Source of the DNA: a virus
DNA: 35,831 bases
IMG/VR virus record: IMGVR_UViG_3300020430_000043
Span: 1-35,831 of that record
Direction: 5' to 3' (one strand)
Below the pieces are notes generated by a model. The model saw only the letters and a program-made list of their open reading frames with translations, made no database searches and was not told the DNA's origin. Of this stretch, positions 1 to 33,449 are shown one piece after another (position 1 is the stretch's first letter; every line of letters begins with the position of its first letter). The position numbers and the translations under genes are program-made.

Positions 1-1409
1 ACGGCGGAGGTGTAGGTATTGGCATTAATATGATAAGACCCGCCGGCTCTAAAATTACAGGTAATGGAACTTCAGACGGCGTTGTCCCTTTTTGCAAAAT
101 ATATGATTCAACTATCCTCGCAACAAACCAAGGTTCAGTTCGACGAGGAGCTGCAAGCGTTAATATCAATATTGAACACAATGACTTCCTCGAGTGGCTT
201 GAAATTAGAGAACCTAAAGGTGACGTTAACAGACAATCTCTTAACCTGCATCAGTGTGCTGTCGTTGGTGATAAGTTTATGCGAAAGCTACAAGCAGGAA
301 ATCCTGAAGCAAGAACAAAGTGGTCAAAGCTTATCCAAAAACGTAAAGCAACTGGAGAACCTTATATTTTATTCAAAGGAAATACAAACAAAAATAATCC
401 AGAAGCATATAAAAAAAATAGTTTAAAGGTACATATGACAAACATATGTAGTGAAATTGTATTACATACAGATGAATCACATAGCTTCGTGTGCTGTTTA
501 TCATCTGTCAATTTAGATAAATATAATGAATGGAAGAATACGAATTTAATTTACGACGCGACTTGGTTCCTGGACGGTGTGCTAGAAGAATTTATTCAAA
601 AGGCCAAGAATATGAAGGGATTCGAGAACTCTGTACGCAGTGCGGAGAAGGGCCGAGCATTAGGATTAGGTGTCCTTGGATGGCACAGCCTATTACAAAA
701 AAACGGAATATCTTTCGAGAGTTTATTAGCTCAATACAAAACAAGAGAAATATTTTCAAAGTTAAAACTTGAAACTGAAAGAGCATCAAGGGCTTTAGCT
801 GAAACGTATGGTGAGCCTTTATGGTGTGTAGGAACTGGGATGCGGAATACACATTTAAGAGCTGTAGCCCCTACCGTGTCTAACAGTAAACTAGCTGGTA
901 ATGTATCGCCTGGTATCGAACCATGGGCTGCTAATGTTTTTACTGATCAATCAGCAAAAGGTACGTTTATAAGAAAAAATAAAGAGCTTAAAAAGTTATT
1001 AAGAAAAGTAGGTATTGATAATAAAGAAACTTGGAATAAGATTTTAAATGATGGCGGATCAATACAAGATATAAAAGAGTTAGATGATTGGTACTATGAT
1101 ACCTTGGGAAGGTTAACCAATGAAAAGAAAGATAATGAGCCTGCTAAAAATGTATTTAAAACTTTTAAAGAGATAAATCAGTTAGAACTAGTAAGACAAG
1201 CAGGTATAAGACAAGACTATATAGATCAATCGGTAAGTCTAAACTTAGCATTCCCATCTGAAGCTTTACCAAGATGGATAAATCAAGTACATATAGAAGC
1301 ATGGAAACGAGGTATAAAAACGTTATATTATACGCGAACAGAATCTGTATTACGTGGTGATATAGCAGCCAAAGCTATGGACCCAAATTGTATAAGCTGT
1401 GATGGTTAA
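1..1409 (+). CDS. nrdA: Ribonucleotide reductase class I large (alpha) subunit, 5'-truncated by the window edge
   Basis: Reduces ribonucleoside diphosphates to deoxy forms and so supplies dNTPs for phage replication. The frame is open from the first base, and the GGGVGIGIN motif lies before the first visible Met (base 30), so that Met is internal and the real start is outside the window. Counting from it, the radical-site signature NICSE is at 138-142 (catalytic Cys140, with Asn138 and Glu142). The radical-transfer tyrosine pair is Tyr433-Tyr434 in KTLYY, and the C-terminal redox cysteines are Cys454 and Cys457 (CISC). The double Tyr favours class I over class II. About 460 residues are visible against roughly 750 in the family. 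It is the only plus-strand gene and meets the minus-strand endolysin gene tail to tail, 2 bases apart. The partner beta subunit is not in the window. Confidence 0.93.
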   Translation, partial: GGGVGIGINMIRPAGSKITGNGTSDGVVPFCKIYDSTILATNQGSVRRGAASVNINIEHNDFLEWLEIREPKGDVNRQSLNLHQCAVVGDKFMRKLQAGNPEARTKWSKLIQKRKATGEPYILFKGNTNKNNPEAYKKNSLKVHMTNICSEIVLHTDESHSFVCCLSSVNLDKYNEWKNTNLIYDATWFLDGVLEEFIQKAKNMKGFENSVRSAEKGRALGLGVLGWHSLLQKNGISFESLLAQYKTREIFSKLKLETERASRALAETYGEPLWCVGTGMRNTHLRAVAPTVSNSKLAGNVSPGIEPWAANVFTDQSAKGTFIRKNKELKKLLRKVGIDNKETWNKILNDGGSIQDIKELDDWYYDTLGRLTNEKKDNEPAKNVFKTFKEINQLELVRQAGIRQDYIDQSVSLNLAFPSEALPRWINQVHIEAWKRGIKTLYYTRTESVLRGDIAAKAMDPNCISCDG

Positions 1410-3392: not shown

Positions 3393-6300
3393 TTATCTTC
3401 TTTTTGGTAATCTTTGTTTAGGCCTTGTAGCTTTAGGTTGCCTATACGGTTTTACTATATTACTTTTCTTTTTTTGTTTTTTATTATATTTTGTTTCTAT
3501 ACCTACCTGCCAACCAGGCCAACCAAGCCCTGTAGCAAGTCTTTGCATATAAGTATTTTGCTCGTTAAAAGCATTACTTAAATTTTCATATTTTTGTGTT
3601 AATCTATCAAAAGGTAAATTAGTTCCTCCAGTTAAAGTCCTTGCTATTGGTTCTAACCTAACAGTTTTACCTTCTTTTAGATCTTCACCAACTAATTTAA
3701 AATATATATCCCAATCAAAATTTCCTTGTCTATTTTTATAATCTCTAGCTCTATAACCGTCATTAAGTCCTTTGACTCCATATACAAGATCTTTTACACG
3801 AGCTCCTACAGGTGGAGAAATATCAAGTAATTCTAATATTGGTTTACCAAAATCTTTTTTCTTACCTTTTTCTTTATTTAATTCTTTGGCTAAGCTTAAA
3901 GCTGAATCTTTAATTGTTGATATAGCAAAACCATACATTCCAAAACCTGACAACAAAGAGTTTAAAACACCATTCATTGCATAATAAAGTTTTTCTTCAT
4001 CTTCTTCTTTTAATTCATCAGATAATGGATTAATACCCATGAATGCTAGACCTTGCTGTAGTGTTGTAAATATTAAGTTTTGTATAGCACCATAATAAAC
4101 TATTTTACCTAAATGTTCAACAGGATTACCCCTACCTGCTTTTAAATCCATAGCAGCCTTATTCATCAAACGCATGTATTGTAAAGGTACGTTTTGAAAC
4201 GTGTAAAAATATTGACCTATTTTGTCAGCTTGCATTTTACTTATTTTATCAGGTCTTGAAGATTGTTGAGCATTTTCTGCTGCTTCCTGCCAATCAATCA
4301 TTGCTTGTTTTTCTGATTCTGTTTGTGACAAGCCTTGTTTTTTATAGGTGTTTATTCTATTACGGTAAAATGTAGCACCACCTGTTACTATAGCAAACGA
4401 GTCCATTAGTCTTGTAGGAAAATAACCTAGTTTAAAAATTTTAGCGTATAAAGCACCTAGTCCTCCTTTTTGAATTATATTTTGTATTTGTTCTTCTCTA
4501 ACATCTAATTTTAAACCACCAAATCTATCTTGTATAAAGTTAGAGTTTATTAATGTAACAACATCCGAGCTAAACTGAGGAACATTTGCAAAAGCTTTAC
4601 CTGCTGCTACAGGATTATTATCAGAATAATTAATAAAGTTAGTTAATGAAATAGTTTGTAATATGGCGGACCTCATATTTAAAAACATAATTGACCCTGT
4701 AGAACCTGTTAAATATAAATCTATTGCAGATCCTACTCTACTTTCTGTTCCTGTAAACGGTCTATTACGACCTGACTTCATTCTTTTTAATATATCTACT
4801 AATGAATTTCTGTATTTTTTACCATATATAGCTTCTAATTTATTTAAATTATTTTTAGAAAATATTTCATCTACATTAGCTTGCCATTGTTGTAAATATC
4901 TAGCTCTTTTAGTATTGTTTACACTTCTAGTTAAGTCTATATTAATTCCATAATCTGACCAACCTTCGTTTTGAGGTTCTGGATAACCATCTTGTTTGGT
5001 AATTTTTATTAACTTATCACCATAAACCTTTAATTGTGGATTTTTAAATACATAAGTTAATAAATCTCTTTTTGATCTTTCACTTAAGCCTGGTATATCG
5101 TAACCAGATTTATTCCATATGTAAACTCTAACCGCGTCTTCATTTGTGTATGGTAAATTACCAGCTTTATTTTTTAATTTTTTCATTTTAGGAACATCTT
5201 TTAAAGACTTTTTTAAATCTTTAAAATCGCGCATCATTTGTACTCTTGACGCGTATATGTCGTTCATAGCACTTGCAAATGGTATTAATAAGTTTTTCTT
5301 ATACCATTGCATTTGTTGCTCACCAAGCTTACCATCGGCTAGTGTTGTATAAAGTAAACCTAAAAAATCATCTTCATAAGGTAGTATACCAAACTTATTA
5401 ATAAGTTGTTGTATTTTTTTAGAACGTTTTCTTGATTCACCTAACTTTTTAGCTGTCTCAGCGTCTATTACTTCAGTTCTAGGTATTTTAGTTTTGCTTG
5501 CTGTTTCTAATATTTTATTAAACTCTTGATTTAATTTACTGCTTTTATAAAAGTCTTGTATCTCTTGATTAATCTCAGCATCTACCAATGCAGCATTGTT
5601 TATTGCTAATTGATCATCTTCTTCTAAACCTTTTGGTGGTTGTTTATCTTTAGGTAATCTTTTATTATTCTTTTTTGCAGCTTTCTTTTCTTCGTTATTA
5701 AGATTATTTTCTGCCTCTTCTAACGTAAACATTAAGCGGCTTTTACCTGTAGCAATATCTGCAGTTTCTTGCGGTGAACTTAGTTCTTGTAATCTAATTT
5801 CTTGATTTACTAACATGCTTCGTAACAAGTTAGTTAAAGCTTGAGCTACAATACCTTCTTGTCTTGGTGCACCTGTTATTAAACCTTCATTAATACCTAT
5901 AGCTTTTAATACATCTTCTGTTGTTAAGTTTTCTTTCTTTTTAAACTGAATAAGTCCTTGATCTCTACCATATCTTTGACCAGTATTTTCATAAAAGTTT
6001 TGTAATACTTTTGTTGGCAAACCAGTTGAAGTACCAAGTAATCTACCTGATGCTGCTTTTTCTAAACTTACAGATTGTTCTGGTAATGCATCTAATATTT
6101 CTTGTGCTAATGGTTGTAAAAATTTAGTTAAAGCAATATATTCTTTTGTACTTGTATTATTTTTAGTATCAAGTCTACTTAACCTTATGTCACCAATTAG
6201 TGGTACTATAATCTCTTCATTGACCCTGTTTATTATAGAAAGTTTTGATGATGGAGACCTTGACATTAAATTTTTAAATGTCCTTTGATCTTCAGGTATT

Positions 6301-9300
6301 TTTTCAAATTCTTCCTTAACTATATCTTGAAACTTTTGTTTTAGCTCTGGTTTATTTTTTAATATTTTATTTTTAAGTACTATACCCTTAGGCCCTGTTG
6401 TTTCAGTAGTTTCTTCTATTGGTACATCAATTATATCCGCAACCCCTGCTTCCTCTGTTACATCAGTAGTAAATTTCTCTGGGAATATTCTTCCTTGTAT
6501 ACCTCTCATGCGGTCTTGTAGATACTTATTTACATAACCCGAAAGTGGTACACCTTTTTCAGGATCAAACTTAGTTACTAAATCTAATAAACCAGTAGGT
6601 CCTGAAATACTTTCAGCAATAAAATCCTCTTTGTAAGTTTCATAGCCTGGTAAGTTTTGTAGTTTTGATGCGGCTTTTTGTATCATAGGTTCGTACAGAT
6701 CTACAATCTCTCCAAAACCTCTCATACCTTTTTCAGCATATATTTTATTTACTTTATCAGCCATTTCTTGGCGACTAGTTTCTTCTAATGTTTCTTTTAT
6801 TATACCTGCAAAATCAGATTCAGTAGGTTGTGTACTTGTTTCTGTTTCTACTTCTACAGCAGGTGTAGCATCTTGTAATAAACCTGTAGCTTCTAAACCA
6901 CCTTCAACACCAACACCTTTAGTTACTCTTAATGCTTGAGGGCTAATTTCTCCCTTGTTTAAACTATCGTTAAAACCCTTTAAAAAATTGTATACATCTC
7001 TACCATTACTAAATTCAGCTTGTAAACCTAAACTTTTAAATGTATTATTAATAAAATCTAAAAGCTGTTGGCCAAAAGTATCAGTATATTTTATATGATT
7101 TCTATTTAATGCATCTATAAATAAAGTTAAAACTTCCTCATCTTGAATAGCTTCAGGTTTATTTTTGTATAGTCTTAATCTATTTGAAAAATTAGAATCT
7201 TCTTTTAATAAATCTGGTTGTATTTTATTTAAATATTTTTTTAAACTATCAGCTAGTTTTTTTGTGGTTTTAGGATTATCATCTAATAAATTTTTTAAAA
7301 CAAAATGTCCTAACTCATGGTTTAATGGATCTTTAAAAGGTCTAGTTGCATCTAACCTACTTAAGTTTGTAACAATAGTAGTCCCTTTTCCTTTTCTATC
7401 TACATATAAACCGTCACCGCCTATGCCCTTTACTAAATTATCACTAACTTCTGTATACTCTTCTGCTGTTAAGTTTTCTTTAGCCCATGACAAAAACTCT
7501 GCATCGTTTTTAACTACTTCAACTTTTGCACCTATTTGTTCACCTGCCTTTGCCTTATCACTGATTCGCTGAGTTTGCATTTGCTGAAGTTCTGTTTGAA
7601 TTTCATTAGACAAAGATTCTATTTCAGCATTAATAGGACCAGTTAATATAGGTATACTTTGTTTTTCTCTTTTTTGTAAACTAAGAAATTTTCTTACATT
7701 ATTTACTAATTTAGAACGCTTATTAATATCACCATAAACTATAGGTTCAACAACTCTTATAGCATTTTCTGTTTCTCTAAAATTATTTAATACTTCAGCA
7801 ATACCCTTTTTGGTAATTTGATTTGCCGTACGAGCTCTCCTTAAATCTAGTTTTAAAGCATCTAAAGATCCAGGCATACGTGCTACTTCAACTTGTAATT
7901 CTTCTGTAGGTGTATCTTGACTAAAAATTTGTAGCATGTTATCACCAGTTGGCCTTAATTTTTTTTCAACTTGGTGTACCCTTACATCTTTTGCAACGTT
8001 AGATATAGCCTTAGCACCAACACCTGCAGCAATACCAGGCGTAACCATTTCAAAACCTATTTCTTTTATATCTAGAGGTTGTCCAGCAAACTTTTGACCT
8101 AAAAATTCTCCAGTACCACCACCAATCATATCAGTTCCAACTAATGTTGCACCAGTTTTAATATTAGAAAAACCTCTACCTTTTAAAGCTAAACCAAGTG
8201 ATTTAGCCATACCACCTGTTATAGCATCTATAACTCCTATAGCAATACCGCGATTATTTGCTCGTGAAATTAAATCTGCATATTGTTCTGCGTTTGTTAA
8301 AATTTCTTTTGTTTTTTCTACAGTTGGTTTACCTTTCTGCATATCACCAAATAATATATCAGTAAAAGTAAACATGGCTTCCATAAACCCACCTAATGTT
8401 GCTACTGAACCTACTACAGAACCATACGCAGTTCCTATACCAGGAACTACCGTACCTATAGTAGCTCCAGCTGCTGCACCTTGCAACATTTTTTCTTGTG
8501 CTGCTGTACTCTTTGCTGCTGTACCTGCTAAAGATGCAAGTGATCCAAAATAAATAGGTAAAACCGCACCTGGTTCATCAAATAAACCAAATGCAAAACC
8601 TGTAATTCCACCACCCATTTTATTATAAGTATCTTCAAAACGACGCATCTCATCAGATATTTTTATATTATCTGCATTGGCATTGTATTGATCAATAACA
8701 CCTTGTATAGCTTTACGATCTTGTTCATCGTCTCCAGTTATACCTTGAGATATTAAATCAAAAGTAGGTTGTATAATATCAGTCCTAGAAAATCCTTCAT
8801 TAGCTGCTTGTACAATGTCATTAATAGCATCTAATAAAAAAAACTCTCCTTTTTCTTCTTCAGTTGATAGCTCAGGATATTTTTTTAATAACTGATCACG
8901 CTCTTTAGTAAGACCAACAAACTCTTCTAATATTTCAGGAGTATAATAAACAGGCTTAGCAAAGTTTTCTGTTCTGCGTTTATATTCTTCTATTTTGAGG
9001 TTTACCTCATCAAGTCTTTCTTGTAAACCTTTATAGTCTGTAGTATCTACTGTAGAATCTTTAGTTTTTGTTTCAACTTTTATATCTTCAGATTTTGGTA
9101 AATCCAAAGAAATATCTTCCGAAGATGATTCCGTAACGTCGAGCACTGGATCTTTCTCCTCCTGAGTTGTGCTCTCTGTCTCGGGAGGATCCGGCTTTTT
9201 TCCGTTTTCAGTTACATTTATTTCTTCTGTAACTTCTACAGCATCAGGAAAATCTTTTTTAAGTTTATCTTCGTCTTTATCGTCTATGCTATAGATAAAA

Positions 9301-9323
9301 CCATTTGATTTAAATTGTTTCAC
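3393..9323 (-). CDS. Giant internal virion (ejection) protein with HELGH metallopeptidase motif and sigma-70 region 2-like domain
   Basis: 1976 residues, probably the counterpart of T7 gp16: last and largest of three presumed internal virion genes after the tail genes. Residues 1-100 are acidic and disordered. About 235-440 are Gly/Ala-rich and hydrophobic and could insert in a membrane. HELGH at 669-673 is a zincin-type zinc motif. About 860-946 read like sigma-70 region 2: EIVDLYEPMIQKAASKL, then ESISGPTGLLDLVTKFDPEKG, then SGYVNKYLQDRMRGI, the order and spacing of the family's core-binding and -10 recognition helices. Residues 1200-1970 are mainly helical with further hydrophobic stretches (about 1535-1570 and 1740-1810) and end very basic. 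I see no lytic transglycosylase motif as in T7 gp16. The start is GTG, overlapping the previous TAG by one base, with an in-frame stop just upstream. Virion location and ejection are inferred from gene order and size. Confidence 0.8.
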   Translation of the reverse strand: MKQFKSNGFIYSIDDKDEDKLKKDFPDAVEVTEEINVTENGKKPDPPETESTTQEEKDPVLDVTESSSEDISLDLPKSEDIKVETKTKDSTVDTTDYKGLQERLDEVNLKIEEYKRRTENFAKPVYYTPEILEEFVGLTKERDQLLKKYPELSTEEEKGEFFLLDAINDIVQAANEGFSRTDIIQPTFDLISQGITGDDEQDRKAIQGVIDQYNANADNIKISDEMRRFEDTYNKMGGGITGFAFGLFDEPGAVLPIYFGSLASLAGTAAKSTAAQEKMLQGAAAGATIGTVVPGIGTAYGSVVGSVATLGGFMEAMFTFTDILFGDMQKGKPTVEKTKEILTNAEQYADLISRANNRGIAIGVIDAITGGMAKSLGLALKGRGFSNIKTGATLVGTDMIGGGTGEFLGQKFAGQPLDIKEIGFEMVTPGIAAGVGAKAISNVAKDVRVHQVEKKLRPTGDNMLQIFSQDTPTEELQVEVARMPGSLDALKLDLRRARTANQITKKGIAEVLNNFRETENAIRVVEPIVYGDINKRSKLVNNVRKFLSLQKREKQSIPILTGPINAEIESLSNEIQTELQQMQTQRISDKAKAGEQIGAKVEVVKNDAEFLSWAKENLTAEEYTEVSDNLVKGIGGDGLYVDRKGKGTTIVTNLSRLDATRPFKDPLNHELGHFVLKNLLDDNPKTTKKLADSLKKYLNKIQPDLLKEDSNFSNRLRLYKNKPEAIQDEEVLTLFIDALNRNHIKYTDTFGQQLLDFINNTFKSLGLQAEFSNGRDVYNFLKGFNDSLNKGEISPQALRVTKGVGVEGGLEATGLLQDATPAVEVETETSTQPTESDFAGIIKETLEETSRQEMADKVNKIYAEKGMRGFGEIVDLYEPMIQKAASKLQNLPGYETYKEDFIAESISGPTGLLDLVTKFDPEKGVPLSGYVNKYLQDRMRGIQGRIFPEKFTTDVTEEAGVADIIDVPIEETTETTGPKGIVLKNKILKNKPELKQKFQDIVKEEFEKIPEDQRTFKNLMSRSPSSKLSIINRVNEEIIVPLIGDIRLSRLDTKNNTSTKEYIALTKFLQPLAQEILDALPEQSVSLEKAASGRLLGTSTGLPTKVLQNFYENTGQRYGRDQGLIQFKKKENLTTEDVLKAIGINEGLITGAPRQEGIVAQALTNLLRSMLVNQEIRLQELSSPQETADIATGKSRLMFTLEEAENNLNNEEKKAAKKNNKRLPKDKQPPKGLEEDDQLAINNAALVDAEINQEIQDFYKSSKLNQEFNKILETASKTKIPRTEVIDAETAKKLGESRKRSKKIQQLINKFGILPYEDDFLGLLYTTLADGKLGEQQMQWYKKNLLIPFASAMNDIYASRVQMMRDFKDLKKSLKDVPKMKKLKNKAGNLPYTNEDAVRVYIWNKSGYDIPGLSERSKRDLLTYVFKNPQLKVYGDKLIKITKQDGYPEPQNEGWSDYGINIDLTRSVNNTKRARYLQQWQANVDEIFSKNNLNKLEAIYGKKYRNSLVDILKRMKSGRNRPFTGTESRVGSAIDLYLTGSTGSIMFLNMRSAILQTISLTNFINYSDNNPVAAGKAFANVPQFSSDVVTLINSNFIQDRFGGLKLDVREEQIQNIIQKGGLGALYAKIFKLGYFPTRLMDSFAIVTGGATFYRNRINTYKKQGLSQTESEKQAMIDWQEAAENAQQSSRPDKISKMQADKIGQYFYTFQNVPLQYMRLMNKAAMDLKAGRGNPVEHLGKIVYYGAIQNLIFTTLQQGLAFMGINPLSDELKEEDEEKLYYAMNGVLNSLLSGFGMYGFAISTIKDSALSLAKELNKEKGKKKDFGKPILELLDISPPVGARVKDLVYGVKGLNDGYRARDYKNRQGNFDWDIYFKLVGEDLKEGKTVRLEPIARTLTGGTNLPFDRLTQKYENLSNAFNEQNTYMQRLATGLGWPGWQVGIETKYNKKQKKKSNIVKPYRQPKATRPKQRLPKRR

Positions 9324-10852
9324 TATTCTTCTATTTTAGTTGATGATATTATATAGGGTGGTAAGTTTTGCGGTCCATCGCCATAACGTTCTTTATGTCT
9401 TCTTATTTCATCTTGTCTAAGTCTACTTAAATCACCTGTTCTAATTTTTCTTTCTATACCATCTTTATCAGTAATAGTAATTAAATTATCATTAGTCATA
9501 AATCTTATTTTGGCTTTAACCATAAACAAATCGTCGTTATCATCAATTTGTTGTTCTATTTTTGTTATTGGATCTTGGTAACGATAAAAGTTTACTTTAA
9601 TTGTTTCACCTTCGTCTAAAGTCCTACCAGACGATGGAGTTAATTCAACAAATCCCATGTCTCTTATTCTATCACCTAATTCTGGGAAATCAGAATATTT
9701 TTTAAATGGGTCCATAAACGTTTGAGTTTCAGGTAACTCTAACAATTGATCTAAATGTACTCTTACATTTCTACTTTTAGTTCCTTTACCACCACCTCCA
9801 CCTCTTCTACCACTAGTATCTTCTTTAGGTGCTTGGTACATAGGCATTTTAGAATCAAAATAATAATCAAAGCCTCTTGGATTACCGTCACTATCTGTAC
9901 TGCTTTTAAATATCGCAGCATCTTCTTTTGATATAGGTTGACCAGCAAATTTACCATCTTCTCTTTCTGCAGATTCTATAAAATCATCTTTAAATCCAAA
10001 TATATCTACAGCAATAGCATTTATATCTTCTATTGAACTTTGCATTGTTGATTGATATAAAGCAGCTTTCATTTGCGCTACACCTAAATCGTAATCTTTC
10101 CTACTTAAATTTCTAAAAGTTGGCGTAGGTGATCCAGCTGAAGTTGTCCAACCTAAAGCAACTAAACCTGCAGCAATTTGTTCATCAAGGTTTGGAACTT
10201 TACCATATACCTTTGACAAGAAACCTTCGGCTTCTACTTTCTTTTTACCTCCTTCAAGATTAGGATTACTTATAGTATAGTAAGCAACTCCATCTTCAAA
10301 ACTTTTATATATACTATATCCTTCTCCTTGCTTCATACCAGTAAAAACATTTGCCATCATCATGTGTTCTGCATTGCCATTGGCAGTTGTTGCACCACCT
10401 TGATTAGATAAGTATTTATCGTTGTCACTAAAGTTTTCTATATAACTGCTAGCGAAAGTTTTTTCAGCTTCTGCTAACTGTACAAGTTGATTAAGTTCTT
10501 TTTGTATTCTATTTCTTTCTGCTGATACACTTTTAAAACTTTCTTTACCTAAGTTTTTATCTTGTATTTGAGTTAATAAATTAGTGTGTTGATTAACTAA
10601 ATCATCAAACAACATATAATCAGCTCTATCTCCTTGTGCTTCTCTTAATCCTTTATAAAATAGCTGTGTATCAATTTGAGCTAACTTAAGTATTTCAGCA
10701 TTTTCTTTTTGTATCCTTTTTGCTTTTTCGTTGTTAAGCTTAATTTTTAATTTGTTAGCATCAATAAAGACATTAGCAATAGATTGTATTGCTTCCATTT
10801 GTTTTCCAACTCCTCCAACGTCTGGGGTACCGGGTTGTCTATATGTGCTCAT
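9323..10852 (-). CDS. Probable internal virion protein (T7 gp15-like position)
   Basis: 509 residues, no family recognised with certainty. Residues 1-150 are helical and rich in Lys, Gln and Glu, suggesting coiled coil. A mixed region follows, with a flexible Gly/Arg-rich linker (GRRGGGGGKGTKSR, about 345-358). The C-terminal 130 residues look beta-rich and end acidic. It lies between the gp14-like membrane-associated gene and the giant gene, overlapping the first by 4 bases and the second by 1, which is the T7 order gp14-gp15-gp16. From this I infer an internal core protein that is ejected and forms part of the trans-envelope conduit. A tail accessory role is the alternative. Confidence 0.6.
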   Translation of the reverse strand: MSTYRQPGTPDVGGVGKQMEAIQSIANVFIDANKLKIKLNNEKAKRIQKENAEILKLAQIDTQLFYKGLREAQGDRADYMLFDDLVNQHTNLLTQIQDKNLGKESFKSVSAERNRIQKELNQLVQLAEAEKTFASSYIENFSDNDKYLSNQGGATTANGNAEHMMMANVFTGMKQGEGYSIYKSFEDGVAYYTISNPNLEGGKKKVEAEGFLSKVYGKVPNLDEQIAAGLVALGWTTSAGSPTPTFRNLSRKDYDLGVAQMKAALYQSTMQSSIEDINAIAVDIFGFKDDFIESAEREDGKFAGQPISKEDAAIFKSSTDSDGNPRGFDYYFDSKMPMYQAPKEDTSGRRGGGGGKGTKSRNVRVHLDQLLELPETQTFMDPFKKYSDFPELGDRIRDMGFVELTPSSGRTLDEGETIKVNFYRYQDPITKIEQQIDDNDDLFMVKAKIRFMTNDNLITITDKDGIERKIRTGDLSRLRQDEIRRHKERYGDGPQNLPPYIISSTKIEE

Positions 10853-11673
10853 TTTTTACCTGTTTTTTGTGATGCTACTACAGAACCTTGATTACCTGTA
10901 CCACCTGCATCTAAAGTTCCTTGTTGATTTGCTCTACTTGATGCTTTAGCCTGTAAACCAGATGAAAAAACTTGGGCTGCGCTGCTTACGCCTTGGCCCA
11001 TAATATTTGCCGCATTGTTACTAGCTGATTGTTGTCTTTGTTGTTGACCAGTAATTTGAGCTTGTTTACGATCAAGTTGTTCCATCATACGATTATCTTT
11101 TTCTCTGTATACAAACAACTGTCCTTCTGCATCTAATTGTTGTTGTCTTGTTGCTTCGCCAAATAAAGCTGATTGTACCCTTACTTGTTCTGAAATACGA
11201 TTTGCTTGTAGTTGAGATTCACCCTTAGCTCTCATAATTTCGTTTTGTACTTCTTGTTGTTCAATAGTAGCAGATACACTCTTTTTTGATTCAGCAGCGG
11301 CTCTAGCTAAAGCAGTTGCTCCACCTGCACTAGCACCGGTTGCAGCTAATAAATCTAAAGTGTTAGCTAAAGCTTTATCTGTTTCTTGTATTTGTATTTC
11401 AGCAGCTTGAGTTGCAACACCTAAATTAGCAAATGGGTTTGAAAATTCCTCTGAAAAATTTTCAATCATATAACTTAAATCTTCAGCGTTTGCATATGGG
11501 TTGATTACAGGTATTGTTTTATTGCGCTCTTTTTCTAAAAGTTCAATATCTCTTTGCAATCTAGCTGCTTCGTTTCTAGCTCCTTTAGCTTGTTGTTTTT
11601 GTTGGTTAGCCATGATACCAGTTCCTAATAACGTAGCACCGGCTCCAATAGCTGCTCCTATTATGAATGCCAT
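10849..11673 (-). CDS. Probable internal virion protein with N-terminal membrane segment (T7 gp14-like position)
   Basis: 274 residues. It opens with one small-residue hydrophobic helix (AFIIGAAIGAGATLLGTGIM, 2-21), like the membrane-inserting N termini of small podovirus ejection proteins. Long Gln/Ala/Glu-rich helical stretches (about 25-60 and 130-215) probably form coiled coils, and the C terminus is low-complexity (Gln, Ser, Ala, Gly). I infer that after ejection it inserts into the outer membrane as the first part of a channel. The start overlaps the cupin gene's stop by one base (TAATG) and its TGA overlaps the next ATG. Family assignment rests on architecture and order rather than on a conserved motif. 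Confidence 0.65.
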   Translation of the reverse strand: MAFIIGAAIGAGATLLGTGIMANQQKQQAKGARNEAARLQRDIELLEKERNKTIPVINPYANAEDLSYMIENFSEEFSNPFANLGVATQAAEIQIQETDKALANTLDLLAATGASAGGATALARAAAESKKSVSATIEQQEVQNEIMRAKGESQLQANRISEQVRVQSALFGEATRQQQLDAEGQLFVYREKDNRMMEQLDRKQAQITGQQQRQQSASNNAANIMGQGVSSAAQVFSSGLQAKASSRANQQGTLDAGGTGNQGSVVASQKTGKK

Positions 11674-12044
11674 TATTTCACTATTTGATTTTCTAATTTT
11701 TTAATATCTTTTGTGTTATCTGGATTTTTATGTATATTAATAAAAATAGATTCTTCATGAGCTAATATTACTCGTTGTGCACCAGGTTTTGATATAGTAT
11801 AACAAGGTGCTAGATGTGTAATAATCTCATTGTTTTCTCTAATTGATACTCTACCCTTTAATAAAAACCATACATGCTCATGTTTATGTTTAGCTCCTAT
11901 AACTACTTGGCCTTTAGACATAACCATTTTACGCATATATATTTGATCTGCAAACTCATGAGTAATTGGTATAATATCTTTAGTATCAACTATTTTACCA
12001 TTGTTGTGTATTATATTTAATTCTTTTTTTGCTTCTAATTCCAT
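11673..12044 (-). CDS. Cupin-domain protein in the tail module
   Basis: 123 residues containing one cupin beta-barrel. Cupin motif 1 is visible as G50-AKHKHEHVWFLLKG64, with metal-ligand candidates His53, His55 and His57. Motif 2 is around PGAQRVILAHEE (87-98), with His96. The usual Glu of motif 1 is not at its standard place. Substrate and reaction cannot be told from sequence; cupins range from enzymes to pure binding or structural barrels. It directly abuts the tail nozzle gene upstream (no gap) and overlaps the gp14-like gene by one base. It may therefore be a virion part, for example a sugar-binding or fibre-attachment element, rather than a metabolic enzyme. That role is inference. Confidence 0.75.
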   Translation of the reverse strand: MELEAKKELNIIHNNGKIVDTKDIIPITHEFADQIYMRKMVMSKGQVVIGAKHKHEHVWFLLKGRVSIRENNEIITHLAPCYTISKPGAQRVILAHEESIFINIHKNPDNTKDIKKLENQIVK

Positions 12045-13574
12045 TTAATATGATGATATGTTATACTGTGAAGATACAGCAAAAATTTCTTTCATACCGC
12101 CAGGATCTGTATTAGTATCTGTTGAAATAGTAACAGTTGTAAAATATCCTTTAATACCTGTTATTTGATTACCAAACCTAACTTCACCAGACGTTGCTGG
12201 ACTATTGTTAATTATATTAGCAAAGTATTTATTTTCTTTACGATCAAACCCTGCTCTATTAATAGGTGGCGTCATAGCTGTAGGAAACTGATTACCGAAA
12301 TTATCATATGCACCTTCATTATAACTATATATTAAAGCAGTGCTATCGTTTGTATTAGACTTGTCAAAATTATCTCCTGTTGAAGTTGTTTCCCAACCTG
12401 TATCTATAGAACCTATACCTGTTTTATCTGATATAATGTTATCAACTTGCCAACCATTACTACCTTCGTAGTTAATAGTTTTAAATACTTTTGAAGCACT
12501 TACCTCTGGATTAAATATAAATTTAATAGTAGATTTATATTGTACTCCATAAAAATTAGCTCTGTTTACTGACTCACTATTATGTCTGTATAATTGTGCT
12601 TGTTTAGCAGAAGTAGTTCCATTATTAAATGTATAAAAAATATTTTTTAAACTAGTACCCATAGCGGGTTTGTAATTATAAAAACTAGTCCATCCTTTTA
12701 CAGATTCATCAAAAGAAACTGTATAATAATCTGTCGTTATATTTTCACCTAAAGGTCCAAGTGTATAAGGTTGATTTGGTTGTAATGAAACAACATACTG
12801 TTTAGTATGTATATCCCACATACCAAAAGCTCTACCTACTCCATATTGACTATCAAGGCCACTAAGTTTATCACGAAAGAAATCATACATACCATATCGT
12901 TGTATTTCTTCTAAACCATCTCTTGATAATCTCATAACAGCGTTACGATCTTTGTCTGTAAAATATTTTCTAAATCCATATATAGCAAAGCTTTCTGGAT
13001 TACGACTTATACCAAATTCACCTAAATAACCTTGAGGTTCTCCAATAACCATGTTACTAGTAGTTACAGATGGATTGCCTTCTGCTGTATAAATAACATT
13101 TTTATTTATTGGAGCACGACTTACTTTATCTTCTTGAAATATATTTAAATAATAATCTTCTGCATATAATTTTTGTATTGTACCTTTAGCTGGATCTAAA
13201 CTTCTAGTTATATCTTCTCCAACACTAAAAACATTACTTTCGTTTATTCCAGTTGTTGAATTAAAAATTCCAGAGTATATTAATGCATGGCCTCTAAACC
13301 TAGCACTTGGCTCTTCTTCAACTAAATAAGCTCTTGGGCCAAATGTTGTACTAGTGTTATTATACCCACCTCGTATACGCGATTCTTCAATCATCCAGTT
13401 TCGCGTTTCATTATTAGTTTGAGGTGTTATAGTTCCATAAGAACTCACACCAGTTTCTCCAGGATTATAATTTGGTATACCATATGATCCATTCCAAACA
13501 GGTGTATTACCCGAATCAACTACCTTTTTTAAAACAAAGCTGTTAAAATATCTTACTTCTACTATTGCACTCAT
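12045..13574 (-). CDS. Tail structural protein, nozzle/stabilisation-associated
   Basis: 509 residues, beta-rich with many Tyr, Asn, Ser and Thr and no signal peptide or enzyme motif. The N terminus (VEVRYFNSFVLKKV) and the C-terminal EIFAVSSQYNISSY resemble tail proteins I recall from Bacteroidota phages. A segment around 100-165, with LYAEDYYLNIFQEDKVSRA, reads like a conserved core. It follows the 1483-residue nozzle-type protein by 34 AT-rich bases and precedes the cupin gene without a gap. It is probably assembled at the distal tail, either completing the nozzle or carrying fibres. Exact position in the virion is unknown. Confidence 0.65.
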   Translation of the reverse strand: MSAIVEVRYFNSFVLKKVVDSGNTPVWNGSYGIPNYNPGETGVSSYGTITPQTNNETRNWMIEESRIRGGYNNTSTTFGPRAYLVEEEPSARFRGHALIYSGIFNSTTGINESNVFSVGEDITRSLDPAKGTIQKLYAEDYYLNIFQEDKVSRAPINKNVIYTAEGNPSVTTSNMVIGEPQGYLGEFGISRNPESFAIYGFRKYFTDKDRNAVMRLSRDGLEEIQRYGMYDFFRDKLSGLDSQYGVGRAFGMWDIHTKQYVVSLQPNQPYTLGPLGENITTDYYTVSFDESVKGWTSFYNYKPAMGTSLKNIFYTFNNGTTSAKQAQLYRHNSESVNRANFYGVQYKSTIKFIFNPEVSASKVFKTINYEGSNGWQVDNIISDKTGIGSIDTGWETTSTGDNFDKSNTNDSTALIYSYNEGAYDNFGNQFPTAMTPPINRAGFDRKENKYFANIINNSPATSGEVRFGNQITGIKGYFTTVTISTDTNTDPGGMKEIFAVSSQYNISSY

Positions 13575-13608
13575 TTATTTTATAATCACTTATTTATAAT
13601 TTAAATTA

Positions 13609-16600
13609 CTAAGGATCAATTTGAGATGGTACAGCTGTGCCTTTTAATTTTAAACCATTTGAATCAAAATTAGCAGACCATATCCTAAAGGGTGTTAAAG
13701 CACCTACAATACCATAACTTTGTTGTAATATATTTGTACCTGACTGTGATACATTTGACGTTTGTGTTCCATCAAATTGTGGATAAAAATCTTGACCAGC
13801 CAAAATATTATATCCTCTCCAAGAAGTACTAGCACTCCACGCTGGAGGATTCCATATAGTTGTTAATGCTTGGTCGGTATAAAATTGTGTTACATATTGT
13901 AAAAAAGGCTCTCTTGCCCACACCGTAACTTTACCGCTTGTGCCAACCGCTAAAGCACTTGCTGCTTTTGCTGTATTTGCTCCAGTTGTAGTAACTTGAT
14001 ATGCATAAGAAGTAATGCTAGGATTAGTTCTAGTATATGGATAATACATATCACCCCAATCAATATTATATATAAAATATGACCCATTAGAATATATATT
14101 TGAAGGTAATTGCCCTCCAGATAATACACTATCTGGCCAACCAGGCACAATAGGAGCTGGATTTAAACTTTCGTTACTTCTTCCATAAGGATAACGTATT
14201 ATTAATCTATAATCTCCAAAACGATCTACTTCATCAGAATATACTTTTACATTATCTTTTGTTGCGGCTGCACCAACACAAACTATTTTTTTACCTTGAG
14301 TTGATAAAACATCTTGGTTTAATATAGACATTGTATCAACGTTTAATTGAATATAATCGCTTTGATTTGAACTATTAGTAGAACTAGGATCATTTACAAA
14401 TGACCCAAATCCTGCATCTGCATTTGTTGCATCTTTTAAACGACCCTCAAAAGAAAGGCCCCCGTTTTGACTTATAGGATAAAGAGTATAATCTGCATAA
14501 CGATTTTGTGTGGTACTTCCCCACCTAATTTCATTACCTTCTATATCTTTTGCTATTTCCCATGCATCTGCAGCTGCACCAGCTGGTCTGTATTGTAAAG
14601 TTATAGGAAATTGAACTCTTAATAAATCTGAAGTTTGTAAACTATTAGTATAAGTTTCTGAAACTGCATCATTATCTATAGATATATCTACTAATATATA
14701 GCCTGTGCCTCTAGTAAGACCACCTTCACTTTGAGGTGTTGTTGCAATCGCACTACCAATAGCGTTATAATTACTATTAGCATATTCATAAGTTATACCA
14801 CCGGAAGTAGTATTTATTGTTTTAGTTTCAATATAGTTACCTGAAGTAGGTAAAGTGCTGCTTAAAACTAAAGTATTATTTCCGGTACCAGTATAAGCGT
14901 TCATGGTTCTATCTAAAATAGGTGCAACACTAGCTCCTGTGTTAACTGAATTAGTTGCATCACTTGTCCAATATATAGCTAGTGATGACCCTCCAGCAGA
15001 TAATAAAGATTCTTGTGCTACATTTGTACCCTGGCCCCACCCTGAATTTACTGCTGCATTGCCAAAAATAACATCTGTAGTAAATGAATCAGTTAATTCG
15101 CCTGCGTCTTTTACTTGTATTGTTAAATTATTAAGGCCTGTTGGTGTACCTGTTATAGTTATTTCGCCTGTTACAGTATCTATGCTAAATTGGTTACCTG
15201 CTGGTTGAGAAGTTATACTAAATTCTAAATCTTTTTTATTTACTGTAATTCCTGCACCACCAACTGGAGAGGTATCTGCACTTCCGTTTACAGCGCTAAA
15301 TAAACTATTTGATGCATTGAGACTTGTTTGGCCAACTTGCATAGAAATAGAAGAAGGCTTTGGAGTTATGGTAGGTGCTACATTTTGTAATGCACCTGTT
15401 GATGTTAAAGTAGCTCCATCATTATTATAAGTAAAGCTATATTGATCGATTACGTTTGAATTAGGTCCATAATAAAAAAGTCTAGCAGTCTTAATCGTAT
15501 AATTATCATATGTTGCTGGATTATTTTTATCTAATGGTTGACCATTATTATTACTTTTAGTCATAATAAAATATGGCCCATTGTCTCCTTCTTGTATTAT
15601 TTCATTATTACCATTTCTAATATTAACAATAGTTAAATTAGAATTTTGCACTGGGCTATCGTTATTAGCTGCAGAAGCTGCTGTTTGTACTGCAAATTGA
15701 TTTGCAACTGTTGAGTTCAAACTCATGCCTTCGTTTAAAGAAAAACTATAATTAAAAAGTCCTGTAGCTAATCCTGTATTACCTGTTAATATTGCATTAT
15801 TTAATGATGAAATTAATCCTGTTGTAGATGTTTCAAAATATATATTTAATAATGATTCTACTGGTGCAGTTTCAAAAACACCTAATTGAAAAGCATAACT
15901 TGAACTAGATGATGTTAAACTACCTATCGGATTTGATGCTATTTGTACAAATTTAGCTATTAATGGATCTGAATTTGAATTATACAAGTCCGTTGCTGCT
16001 GAAGCAGTAATACCAAACATATCACTTATTGTACCAATAATAGTTACATTGTTGTCTACACTGGTAAGCGTAGATGTATTAGGATAAAAAGCAACATTAT
16101 GTGTAGGTGTAGCAGAATTTATAGGAGTAACTCTACCAAATAACTCTACACTACTTCTTGAAACCATTAAGGTTTCGTTATCTTCACTAAACTCATCTTC
16201 AGATGATCTAAATTGTTTTTGATCAGGACCTACTAATGATAAATCTCTAGGTATTTTATTTATATTATCACTAAACAATGTTACGAAACCTACTTGTCCA
16301 GCTATGTCATTTAAATTAGTTACAGTATTAGGTGGGCCATCCATAATACCTGGAGAATAAACATTATAATATTCTTGTTCTGTTTGTTTAATAACCACTT
16401 TAAAAGAATACCATCCTAAAGGATTATAATTTGAACTACCTGCATCTCCATTATATAAACCAGGAGCACCTGAGTTTAATGTTCGATTACTTGTAATTTG
16501 GTCGTTAAATAATAGTTTAATTGAATCACCACTTAAAGTAGAAATAGGCAATGAAGATGATTCTGTACTTGTTCTATAGTTATGATATATTGTAGCAGCA

Positions 16601-18060
16601 TCAAATGCATCATTACCAATTACATTTTGTATTTGACTATTAGATAGTAATACAGTAGAAGATCTACCGTATCTATCACTTAATACAATACCTGCTTGAT
16701 AATTTCTATTTTGTTTAACCGTACTATTAGGATATTCTGTAATTCCTGTATATCCTACAGGATTAGATGGAGAAGGTATTGCAAATGTTGATTTTTGGCT
16801 TACTCCTACATTATAATTTAAATTTGCAGGAGGTGTGTGTTTATCTTGAAAATTTCCATAAACAATCCTATTAGAAATTATTTCTTGTGATAAAGCTCTT
16901 ACTGGCACTTTATCATATACTCTTATTATTTCAGACTCAGGTAATGTTTTATAAGGTTTAGTAGCTTGATAAGTAAATTCAATAATGTTGGCAGTTCCAA
17001 AATCTGCTTGTTCTATTGTATTTAATACTTGTACGTTTTGTAAACCATCTTCTTTATATAAAATATCAATTTCTTTTATTTTAAAATAAGAAAAAAGATT
17101 ATTACCTGTAACAGGATTATTGCTATTATCTAAAGGTAATGGAATTTGTAATTTAATTTCATTAACTTTATTTTCCATAAATTCTACTATAGTGCTCCTA
17201 TAAGTCTTATCTTCATCACTATTTAAAAAATATCCATCTTGTTTAGGGATATATGCTGCTTGCGTAAAAGGAGCAAAAACTGAATATTCATTATCATCAA
17301 ATCTAAATCTATAACTAAATCTTACAAATTTATCTTCTAAATAATCTGGGTCTCCTGGATATGTTGAATTATAAGGATTTGGTGTTCCTTGAAAATAAGG
17401 ATTTTGTGTAGTATTATCAGCTAAAGTTGGGCTAACAACGTCGTACATTGTAGTTTCATATCCTGATAAATCAGTCGTTGTTGTTTGTTTATATAAATTT
17501 ATAGGTTGGTAGGGTGCATATTTTGCAACAGATATTTGATCTTCATTAGTATAATAATTAACATTTTCTGAAGCAAGTCTTACATTTATTTTACGAGGTT
17601 GATTTCTATTATCTGTAAAAAATAGTAATTCTTCAATTAAATTTACACCTGTAATTAAATTAGTAGTTGAAAAATTTAAAAAACTACCAGAAACTAAAAT
17701 AGAAGACGCAGCTGTAGCAACATTGTAAGAATATATATAATTTTTTGCAGTAGCATTAAAAGTAATATCTGTTAAATAATTTGGATCAGTGTAATCAGTT
17801 AAAAATATATATATAGTATCATCATTAGTATTTGTAAATTGACCTATTATTTGCAAATTATTAGCCGATGTGCTTGTTAATACATTAAAATCCGCTAATA
17901 GTTGATTACCTAAAACATTTTCTAAAGCTCCAACATCTGCGCTTTCAGATTTACTTACTTGAATGTTATTACCTTCTCTATATTCCCCTTGCGGTATTAA
18001 TCTCGCATCAAGGTCAAGGTTCATTTTTGACTTTATAAAAGCATTTTTAACCTCAGGCAT
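13609..18060 (-). CDS. Large tail nozzle / DNA-stabilisation protein with Ig/cadherin-like insert
   Basis: 1483 residues. The start (KSKMNLDLDARLIPQGEYRE, then ENVLGNQ at 45-51) matches what I remember of the tail stabilisation or nozzle (T7 gp12 / P22 gp10-like, crAss muzzle-type) proteins of Bacteroidota podoviruses. Such proteins close the tail tip and hold DNA in the capsid. Roughly 1-650 are beta-rich, consistent with a propeller-like fold. About 900-1010 contain a cadherin/Ig-like repeat, with sequences such as ITSQPAGNQFSIDTVTGEITITGTP (broken here by no gap). The remaining C terminus is beta-rich and may contact the host surface or fibres. The protein is much longer than T7 gp12 (about 800), and the insert explains part of this. 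It lies 4 bases after the connector gene. Confidence 0.75.
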   Translation of the reverse strand: MPEVKNAFIKSKMNLDLDARLIPQGEYREGNNIQVSKSESADVGALENVLGNQLLADFNVLTSTSANNLQIIGQFTNTNDDTIYIFLTDYTDPNYLTDITFNATAKNYIYSYNVATAASSILVSGSFLNFSTTNLITGVNLIEELLFFTDNRNQPRKINVRLASENVNYYTNEDQISVAKYAPYQPINLYKQTTTTDLSGYETTMYDVVSPTLADNTTQNPYFQGTPNPYNSTYPGDPDYLEDKFVRFSYRFRFDDNEYSVFAPFTQAAYIPKQDGYFLNSDEDKTYRSTIVEFMENKVNEIKLQIPLPLDNSNNPVTGNNLFSYFKIKEIDILYKEDGLQNVQVLNTIEQADFGTANIIEFTYQATKPYKTLPESEIIRVYDKVPVRALSQEIISNRIVYGNFQDKHTPPANLNYNVGVSQKSTFAIPSPSNPVGYTGITEYPNSTVKQNRNYQAGIVLSDRYGRSSTVLLSNSQIQNVIGNDAFDAATIYHNYRTSTESSSLPISTLSGDSIKLLFNDQITSNRTLNSGAPGLYNGDAGSSNYNPLGWYSFKVVIKQTEQEYYNVYSPGIMDGPPNTVTNLNDIAGQVGFVTLFSDNINKIPRDLSLVGPDQKQFRSSEDEFSEDNETLMVSRSSVELFGRVTPINSATPTHNVAFYPNTSTLTSVDNNVTIIGTISDMFGITASAATDLYNSNSDPLIAKFVQIASNPIGSLTSSSSSYAFQLGVFETAPVESLLNIYFETSTTGLISSLNNAILTGNTGLATGLFNYSFSLNEGMSLNSTVANQFAVQTAASAANNDSPVQNSNLTIVNIRNGNNEIIQEGDNGPYFIMTKSNNNGQPLDKNNPATYDNYTIKTARLFYYGPNSNVIDQYSFTYNNDGATLTSTGALQNVAPTITPKPSSISMQVGQTSLNASNSLFSAVNGSADTSPVGGAGITVNKKDLEFSITSQPAGNQFSIDTVTGEITITGTPTGLNNLTIQVKDAGELTDSFTTDVIFGNAAVNSGWGQGTNVAQESLLSAGGSSLAIYWTSDATNSVNTGASVAPILDRTMNAYTGTGNNTLVLSSTLPTSGNYIETKTINTTSGGITYEYANSNYNAIGSAIATTPQSEGGLTRGTGYILVDISIDNDAVSETYTNSLQTSDLLRVQFPITLQYRPAGAAADAWEIAKDIEGNEIRWGSTTQNRYADYTLYPISQNGGLSFEGRLKDATNADAGFGSFVNDPSSTNSSNQSDYIQLNVDTMSILNQDVLSTQGKKIVCVGAAATKDNVKVYSDEVDRFGDYRLIIRYPYGRSNESLNPAPIVPGWPDSVLSGGQLPSNIYSNGSYFIYNIDWGDMYYPYTRTNPSITSYAYQVTTTGANTAKAASALAVGTSGKVTVWAREPFLQYVTQFYTDQALTTIWNPPAWSASTSWRGYNILAGQDFYPQFDGTQTSNVSQSGTNILQQSYGIVGALTPFRIWSANFDSNGLKLKGTAVPSQIDP

Positions 18061-28319: not shown

Positions 28320-28591
28320 TATTTAGCTCTACTTTCAGCAAATCCTCCAAATTTTATTTTATTAGATTTACTATCTTCTAAAATATTTTTTTCTTGTTCA
28401 ATACGTGTAAGTATTTCAAAAGCATCAAATATTGCTAGCTTTTTTGTTGCTGCTGCGTTTTTTAATCTATCAGCTGCTAAATCTTCAGAAGCGTCGTCAA
28501 CTATAATCTCTTCTTCTGCTACTTTAATTAATTCATCAACTGCTTTTTGCCCAGCTTGGATTATATTCTGTTTTATTTTTTTGCTGTTCAT
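28319..28591 (-). CDS. Candidate terminase small subunit
   Basis: 90 residues, helical, directly before terL (one-base overlap). It contains AADRLKNAAATKKLAIFDAF (about 40-59) and ends KFGGFAESRAK. Small size, predicted all-helical makeup and position suit a DNA-recognising small terminase, but I see no certain helix-turn-helix. The start lies 56 bases inside the preceding gene, and the protein has no other Met, so this overlap is probably real. It could instead be another small packaging or head protein. Confidence 0.5.
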   Translation of the reverse strand: MNSKKIKQNIIQAGQKAVDELIKVAEEEIIVDDASEDLAADRLKNAAATKKLAIFDAFEILTRIEQEKNILEDSKSNKIKFGGFAESRAK

Positions 28592-29141
28592 ACTTAATTA
28601 CAATATCATTTGATTTCATACAGTATAAAAATTCATTATCTATTATAAATTCAAATTCTGAATTAGGTGTAAAACCTATACAGTCTCCAGATTTAATTCC
28701 TAGCTTGTTTAAAGAGCTATTGTCATATTTAAGTATCCCAATATGCTTAGCTAGTTTATCTAACGTTAAATCATCTTTATTTACAATTGGTTTTACAAAG
28801 CATCTATCGCCAAAACTTTTCCAACCGGTACCATTATTATATAAATAAATTTGATCTACTTGACAAAAATACTTATTGTCAAATAAAAATTTACTACTGT
28901 TTTTTTCTTTACCTCTTATATCATAATATCTTCTAAATACATTATGATGTATCATAACGTAGTCGTTTGGTTTCAACGGTGTTTTATAAGCAAGAGGTAT
29001 AGATTTTACTTTAGCTAATTTATTAATGAATTTAAAAGATTCTATACTAGTGTTTAATATTAATTTTTTACCATTAATTTTTTTTTGATTATTATATCGT
29101 TCACCTACTGGTTCAACAATAAAATCATAAACACTATTCAT
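28536..29141 (-). CDS. Tandem double GroES-like (co-chaperonin fold) protein
   Basis: 201 residues that read as two GroES-type beta-barrels in a row. Half 1 (1-102) begins YDFIVEPVGERYNN, has KKLILN and AKVKSIP, then LKPNDYVMIHHNVF and CQVDQIYLY. Half 2 (about 108-185) begins SFGDRCFVKPI, has HIGILKYDN, then LGIKSGDCIGF and EFEFIIDNEFLYCMKSNDI. Each follows the GroES order: GDRVLVKP start, GxVVAVG strand, VKxGDxVxF, and an IDGExYxIMxExDI end. No obvious mobile loop is present in half 2. It lies just before the terminase genes, well away from groEL, so it may be a modified cap for the phage chaperonin or a structural barrel used in assembly. The fold is inferred by eye. Confidence 0.65.
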   Translation of the reverse strand: MNSVYDFIVEPVGERYNNQKKINGKKLILNTSIESFKFINKLAKVKSIPLAYKTPLKPNDYVMIHHNVFRRYYDIRGKEKNSSKFLFDNKYFCQVDQIYLYNNGTGWKSFGDRCFVKPIVNKDDLTLDKLAKHIGILKYDNSSLNKLGIKSGDCIGFTPNSEFEFIIDNEFLYCMKSNDIVIKYEQQKNKTEYNPSWAKSS

Positions 29142-33192: not shown

Positions 33193-33449
33193 AGTACAAT
33201 TACAACATCTTGTAACTTAATAACTTGATATATTTCTTTATCATATTCTACATCATGTCCGGCATGTTTATCATAGAATATATTATCATTGTTTTTAATA
33301 CCTACTACTTCATTACCTATAGAAATAACTTTTGCTTTATTATATCTTAAATCTTCTCTAGTTTTTTCGGTTAACAATAAACCTCCTTTAGTTTTAGATA
33401 TACCTTGTTTTTCTTTTTGAATTATAATATTATTCCCCACCGCCTTCAT
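33189..33449 (-). CDS. groES: GroES-type co-chaperonin
   Basis: 86 residues, the usual size being about 95. It caps the GroEL ring during folding. It starts MKAVGNNIIIQ, then has a mobile-loop-like segment GISKTKGGLLLTE (16-28) whose GGLLL stands where GroES has GGIVL. It continues with RYNKAKVISIGNEVVG, KNNDNIFYDKHAGHDVEYD and a final DVVIVL. The roof loop is short. It begins 20 bases inside groEL, in reversed gene order from the usual bacterial groES-groEL. Partnering with the phage GroEL, rather than that of the host, is likely from linkage. Confidence 0.8.
   Translation of the reverse strand: MKAVGNNIIIQKEKQGISKTKGGLLLTEKTREDLRYNKAKVISIGNEVVGIKNNDNIFYDKHAGHDVEYDKEIYQVIKLQDVVIVL

Follow-up and report, generated by a model that had tools for sequence, protein, structure and literature searches.

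A sigma-70 region 2-like domain predicted within a giant virion-type phage protein

What would a piece of a transcription initiation factor do inside a giant phage protein encoded among virion genes? The question is raised by the window, a 35,831-base IMG/VR viral record in which a gene with a GTG start encodes a protein of 1976 amino acids and ends the structural block (3393..9323, minus strand; from the ORF list and its translation). An initial annotation had marked a sigma-70 region 2-like domain at 6486-6746 of the minus strand; this interval corresponds to residues 860-946 of the 1976-aa ORF, and the motifs quoted for it are present. The protein had also been read as a giant, probably ejected virion protein in the place of T7 gp16, and PHROG matches of its neighbors, together with synteny, indicate that the giant closes the virion structural operon. 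The syntenic neighbors (10849..18060, minus strand) are genes of 274, 123, 509, and 1483 aa, the last two belonging to the virion structural protein family phrog_14478. Near relatives have this operon too: of 80 domain-bearing loci, 78 contain the 509-aa gene and 56 the 274-aa gene, and the terminase is 70-80% identical to that of the window in 28 of the 30 domain-bearing records tested.

The sigma-like domain itself (residues ~854-962; 6438..6764, minus strand) emerges from sequence, profile, and fold searches. Sigma factor families account for every NCBIfam match of the window segment at E<=1 (8/8), the best being FliA_WhiG (TIGR02479; E=0.001), and its only PHROG match is the sigma family phrog_351 (E=0.0028). 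A phmmer search with the segment against PDB sequences returned only two matches, both to sigma WhiG chains (E 0.11-0.15), while 12 of the 15 PDB sequence matches of a three-sequence homologue profile were sigma factors. When the window protein and 30 relatives were scanned with Pfam, Sigma70_r2 (PF04542) gave no significant match, and the scores of the domain stay below the curated Pfam and NCBIfam cut-offs. In the cleanest test, an HMM built solely from region 2 of E. coli K-12 RpoD, RpoS, RpoH, and FliA was applied to a set of 174 giants totaling 416,485 aa. Its best match among them is the window protein (residues 876-939, 15.5 bits, E 9.7e-5), and its top match lies inside the domain in 104 of 117 domain-bearing giants, where the domain makes up 4.3% of their length; reversed-sequence controls peak at 4.0 bits.

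The initial annotation had also looked to structure prediction, and AlphaFold2, with a model made on a 30-sequence alignment, gave a sigma-like rather than a non-sigma fold, with a pLDDT of ~97 over the domain. Helices are predicted at residues 835-886, 894-907, 912-918, and 927-946, with a low-confidence linker behind them. The first is a long helix in the region 1.2/2.1 position (6666..6821, minus strand; helix 4-55 of the model). The second and third, at residues 894-918 (6570..6644, minus strand; helices 63-76 and 81-87 of the model), are region 2.2-like, occupy what is the core-binding position in sigma factors, and align to RpoD 394-418. The last (6486..6545, minus strand; helix 96-115 of the model) is region 2.3/2.4-like, falls in the position that serves the -10 element in sigma factors, and contains the conserved Y930, K933, and R938. 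When this model was compared with the PDB by Foldseek, the first 34 matches were all sigma factors (RpoS, SigA, sigma-70, sigma-32, and SigC); the best had an E of 0.14 and a probability of 0.97, modest statistics within a consistent list. Among viral structure models, the best two matches were phage sigma factors and the third was a large uncharacterized viral protein (1475 aa in the model). A second model that included a downstream segment, region X (residues about 1085-1200; 5724..6071, minus strand), again matched sigma factors first. Although none of these searches settles the matter by itself, the concordance of NCBIfam, PHROG, phmmer, the E. coli sigma profile, and AlphaFold2/Foldseek makes the predicted sigma resemblance more than chance and confirms the domain as first annotated. 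A ClpS assignment was considered after a 30-member scan in which a ClpS model produced an isolated match (E=0.00023) in a different family member; the all-helical AlphaFold2 model argues against a ClpS fold.

While the domain shares its helix order and the glycine/aromatic framework of regions 2.1-2.4 with FliA/WhiG-type and other sigma-70 factors (TIGR02479; PF04542), it differs from them in lacking regions 3 and 4, in its changed core-contact and -10 residues, and in being embedded in a 1976-aa virion-type protein. No clear region 4, the helix-turn-helix that nearly all sigma-70 factors possess, had been seen at the outset, and an HMM for region 4 likewise finds nothing above reversed controls in the giants; an HMM for region 3 run over them gave nothing convincing. 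Region X, which is conserved in part of the relatives, contains no recognized sigma region 3 or 4, and its candidacy as region 4 is unsupported by both the second model search and the region 4 HMM. A region-2-type module can work without region 4 in the case of T4 gp55, a phage sigma factor with region-2 homology. The two have in common a region-2-type module without region 4, but gp55 is small, free-standing, and synthesized late in infection, whereas the window domain is part of a virion-type giant.

How much of the sigma machinery the domain retains is evident from 83 aligned domains; in the gapless part of the alignment, each residue n of E. coli sigma-70 is matched by residue n+500 of the window protein. 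The family keeps the sigma-70 framework positions G408, G411, an aromatic at 419, G424, and Y430, and at family level is similar at D403 (57/83), I405, and Q406, the last as glutamate. Changed in the family are E407 (to T/S), W433 (to K in 82/83), W434 (to F/Y), R436 (to P), and A438 (to an invariant R), and the window copy specifically has D403 replaced by A, Q406 by I, and R436 by Q. Residues for core contact and -10 melting are thus only partly kept, and least so in the window copy. In sigma-70, polar residues make core contacts, and W433 is the base-flipping tryptophan in -10 melting. A retained framework with replaced polar core contacts and a replaced base-flipping tryptophan would plausibly allow core binding and DNA contact. 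Since the position of the base-flipping tryptophan is a near-invariant lysine, classical -10 promoter melting is doubtful and is not to be assumed.

The search for homologues in related phage giants that the first reading had suggested shows that the domain family is widely conserved in IMG/VR. A three-sequence profile (A1) finds 183 relatives (loci), and all 80 of the 80 loci kept lie inside giant phage ORFs, the complete ones mostly of 1900-3300 aa and some cut by contig ends. Nine residues are invariant in the 83 aligned domains (P892, G911, L915, P926, L927, N932, R938, F951, and D954), and further residues, such as G866, are fixed or almost fixed; Y930 and K933 are near-invariant in the -10 helix. 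After iterative search, the domain was found in 117 of 174 giants. Among 74 near-full-length giants sampled only via their C-terminus, it is present in 34 and absent or unrecognizable in 40; its lack from the latter indicates that it is not essential to the basic job of the giant. One scan of genome contigs with one short pattern found no cellular relative of the domain, which is weak evidence of absence.

Directly behind the last sigma-like helix, before the low-confidence linker, lies the conserved motif FPEKFTTDVTE (residues 947-957; window 6453-6485), within which F951 and D954 are invariant and E957 is present in 80 of 83 domains. This motif could be a processing or docking site. A separate observation concerns two giants in which the sigma slot holds dissimilar sequence of about 26% identity (L106, ORF aa 290-430; L107, ORF aa 1095-1215), with downstream flanks 77% and 52% identical, respectively, to those of domain-bearing giants. 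Weak matches to SigF/G and ECF sigma factors were obtained for these slots (best E 0.018 and 0.01), which is suggestive only of a possible module replacement. Over 45 such slots, sigma matches are barely above noise, and no clear enrichment emerges with the E. coli sigma profile (5/24 in the slot).

The remainder of the giant indicates the kind of protein in which the domain resides. Upstream of it is a HELGH zincin metallopeptidase motif (residues 669-673; 7305..7319, minus strand; HExxH pattern); Pfam yields no significant peptidase match in the window giant, and the zincin assignment is at motif level. An HExxH occurs <=400 aa upstream of the domain in 109 of the 117 domain-bearing giants, at a median of 167 aa from the domain start (range 141-293), and all giants together contain 167 HExxH motifs, compared with 0.6 expected from composition. 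Further toward the N-terminus, a glycine-rich stretch (residues 255-312; 8388..8561, minus strand) has a weak likeness to tape-measure proteins (phrog_23574, E=1.2e-4). With such a motif in a multidomain giant encoded among virion genes, the architecture is best read as that of the zincin-bearing polyvalent phage protein class. Members of this class are packaged, injected giants, of which the N4 virion RNA polymerase is an example (PMC5512222). The N4 enzyme is about 3500 aa long, and its passage through the tail channel as beads on a string has been proposed (PMC12633501). Giant size, HExxH, location among virion genes, and linker-joined modules are common to N4 vRNAP or its class and the window giant. 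Unlike N4 vRNAP, however, the window giant has a sigma region-2 module and no recognized polymerase domain, there being no Pfam or PHROG match to one. The parallel with T7 gp16, in turn, is by position only.

The best conserved stretch of these giants is the C-terminal part (residues 1250-1955; 3459..5576, minus strand), for which six giants of related phages show 36-41% identity along about 690 aa. The full-length giant used as query against viral contigs gave no match because conservation is patchy; the terminase, the domain profile, and the C-terminus served to gather relatives instead. Remote homology also connects the C-terminal ~700 aa with gp74 of Tenacibaculum phage Gundel (E 2.2e-12), which is annotated as a structural protein and provides the sole sequence link found from the giant to an annotated virion protein. 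This homologue indirectly supports a probable presence of the giant in the virion.

The terminase and portal of the window phage match PHROG families, and tblastn groups the terminase with those of Flavobacterium elemo phages, Cellulophaga phi19:3, phi18:3, and phi38:1, Tenacibaculum Gundel, and a Maribacter phage, so that by its terminase relatives the phage falls in the Pachyviridae/Pervagoviridae/Elemovirus group. Gundel and Calle are podoviral (PMC8776804). By analogy with these relatives, the host is probably a member of Bacteroidota. The giants of Cellulophaga phi38:1 (gp101) and phi19:3 (gp129), Gundel (gp74), and Flavobacterium elemo (gp18) belong to the same phage group by terminase and portal and lie at the same operon end. 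Those of Gundel and elemo have an HExxH, as the window giant does, but the sigma-like domain of the window family is not detectable in any of the four. Gundel alone corresponds to the window giant by sequence, at the C-terminus, whereas the others do so by position only. Positional counterparts in two related phages (L001 741-12320 and L003 28852-39936) are about 3700-3860 aa long and have HExxH motifs; the sigma domain of the window family was not detected in them.

Free-standing sigma factors are also encoded in most near relatives of the window phage. Of 30 domain-bearing records, 23 contain a further ORF (about 250-290 aa) with a match to Sigma70_r2, 17 of them above the curated cut-off, and aligned examples of this free sigma (~255 aa; L193-L206) read as regions 2, 3, and 4 and are complete. 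As near relatives encode a free, complete sigma, the group appears to redirect host polymerase by sigma factors. Both the free protein and the domain of the giant are sigma region 2, with weak profile similarity, but they are different sequence families, and the former, unlike the latter, has regions 2, 3, and 4 complete on its own gene. The free sigma is also present in 8 of 16 records whose giant has no domain; set against the 23 of 30 with it, and counted on fragments, a link between the two is not convincing. No free sigma gene was seen in the window fragment. The Bacteroidota promoter pattern gave an uninformative 4 matches in the window, compared with 3.0 expected.

Taken as a virion protein of the polyvalent type that bears a zincin motif and, where N4 vRNAP has its polymerase, a sigma region-2 module, the giant would be ejected and would act on host RNA polymerase, a reading to which we give an even chance. 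In the proposed mechanism, the phages would be podoviruses related to Pachyviridae and Elemovirus, and the giant, packaged in the particle, would join the zincin motif, the region-2 module, and the conserved C-terminal part; the linkers on either side of the module are of low confidence and probably disordered. Following adsorption, the giant would thread its way into the cell, either together with the genome or before it. Its region-2 module would then dock on host RNA polymerase, most likely at the beta-prime clamp helices, as sigma region 2 does, and would bias the polymerase to the incoming DNA or displace the host sigma for as long as the complete sigma factor encoded by the phage had yet to be made. 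Packaging, ejection, polymerase docking, the promoter effect, and any proteolytic release by the zincin are steps that we infer. The more specific proposal, that a region-2-only sigma domain on an ejected giant takes hold of host RNA polymerase on behalf of the incoming genome, ahead of all phage gene expression, is offered tentatively, as a possibility short of an even chance.

The module might instead bind host core polymerase and read no promoter, acting as a competitor that blocks host sigma to shut host transcription or as a tether that keeps polymerase next to the entering genome, whose uptake would then be driven by transcription. This somewhat unlikely alternative fits a region 2 that stands without regions 3 and 4 in an ejected-type giant and that has lost the -10-reading tryptophan (W433 to K, 82/83) while keeping the glycine and aromatic framework. 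However, the polar core-contact residues are changed too, and the near-invariance of Y930, K933, and R938 in the -10 helix suggests that the -10 face is also functional. We consider it unlikely that the fold has been exapted, such that the sigma region-2 domain makes no contact with RNA polymerase and has as its only ligand DNA, a different domain of the giant, or some partner in the virion. The altered core-contact and melting residues, the invariant residues that are particular to this family and lie outside the sigma signature (P892, F951, and D954 among them), and the absence of the domain from many related giants would agree with exaptation, but the sigma resemblance covers regions 2.1-2.4 in full and peaks in the window copy itself, a pattern that functionless drift would not have preserved. 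Chance resemblance of an unrelated helical domain with an accidental FDPEKG, which the non-significant Pfam Sigma70_r2 result and single-search E-values of only 0.001-0.1 might suggest, is nearly excluded by sequence, profile, and fold searches that all select sigma factors, co-linear over regions 2.1-2.4, and by negative reversed-sequence controls.

Should the capture of host polymerase by an ejected sigma-like module be correct, it would constitute a third strategy beside packaged polymerases, as in N4, and packaged polymerase-modifying enzymes, of which T4 Alt is one. No report of a packaged sigma module was found in the open-access papers searched. For early transcription control by phages that lack a packaged polymerase and have Bacteroidota-type hosts, the module is a concrete 110-residue candidate, conserved in ejected-type giants of a widespread aquatic phage group. 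It would give the sigma fold a use other than in free transcription factors, and these viruses (marine phages with Flavobacteria-type hosts) may deliver, together with their DNA, a means of taking over host transcription. It would likewise add a domain to the polyvalent-protein catalogue, the main text of which mentions no sigma domain and does not contain the word sigma (PMC5512222).

Two further features of the window were noted. Genes for a GroEL-like chaperonin (518 aa; window 33430-34986) and a 201-aa GroES-like co-chaperonin (window 28536-29141) adjoin the terminase. On the strand opposite to the structural block, a gene for the large subunit of ribonucleotide reductase (window 30-1409, plus strand) is cut by the window start.
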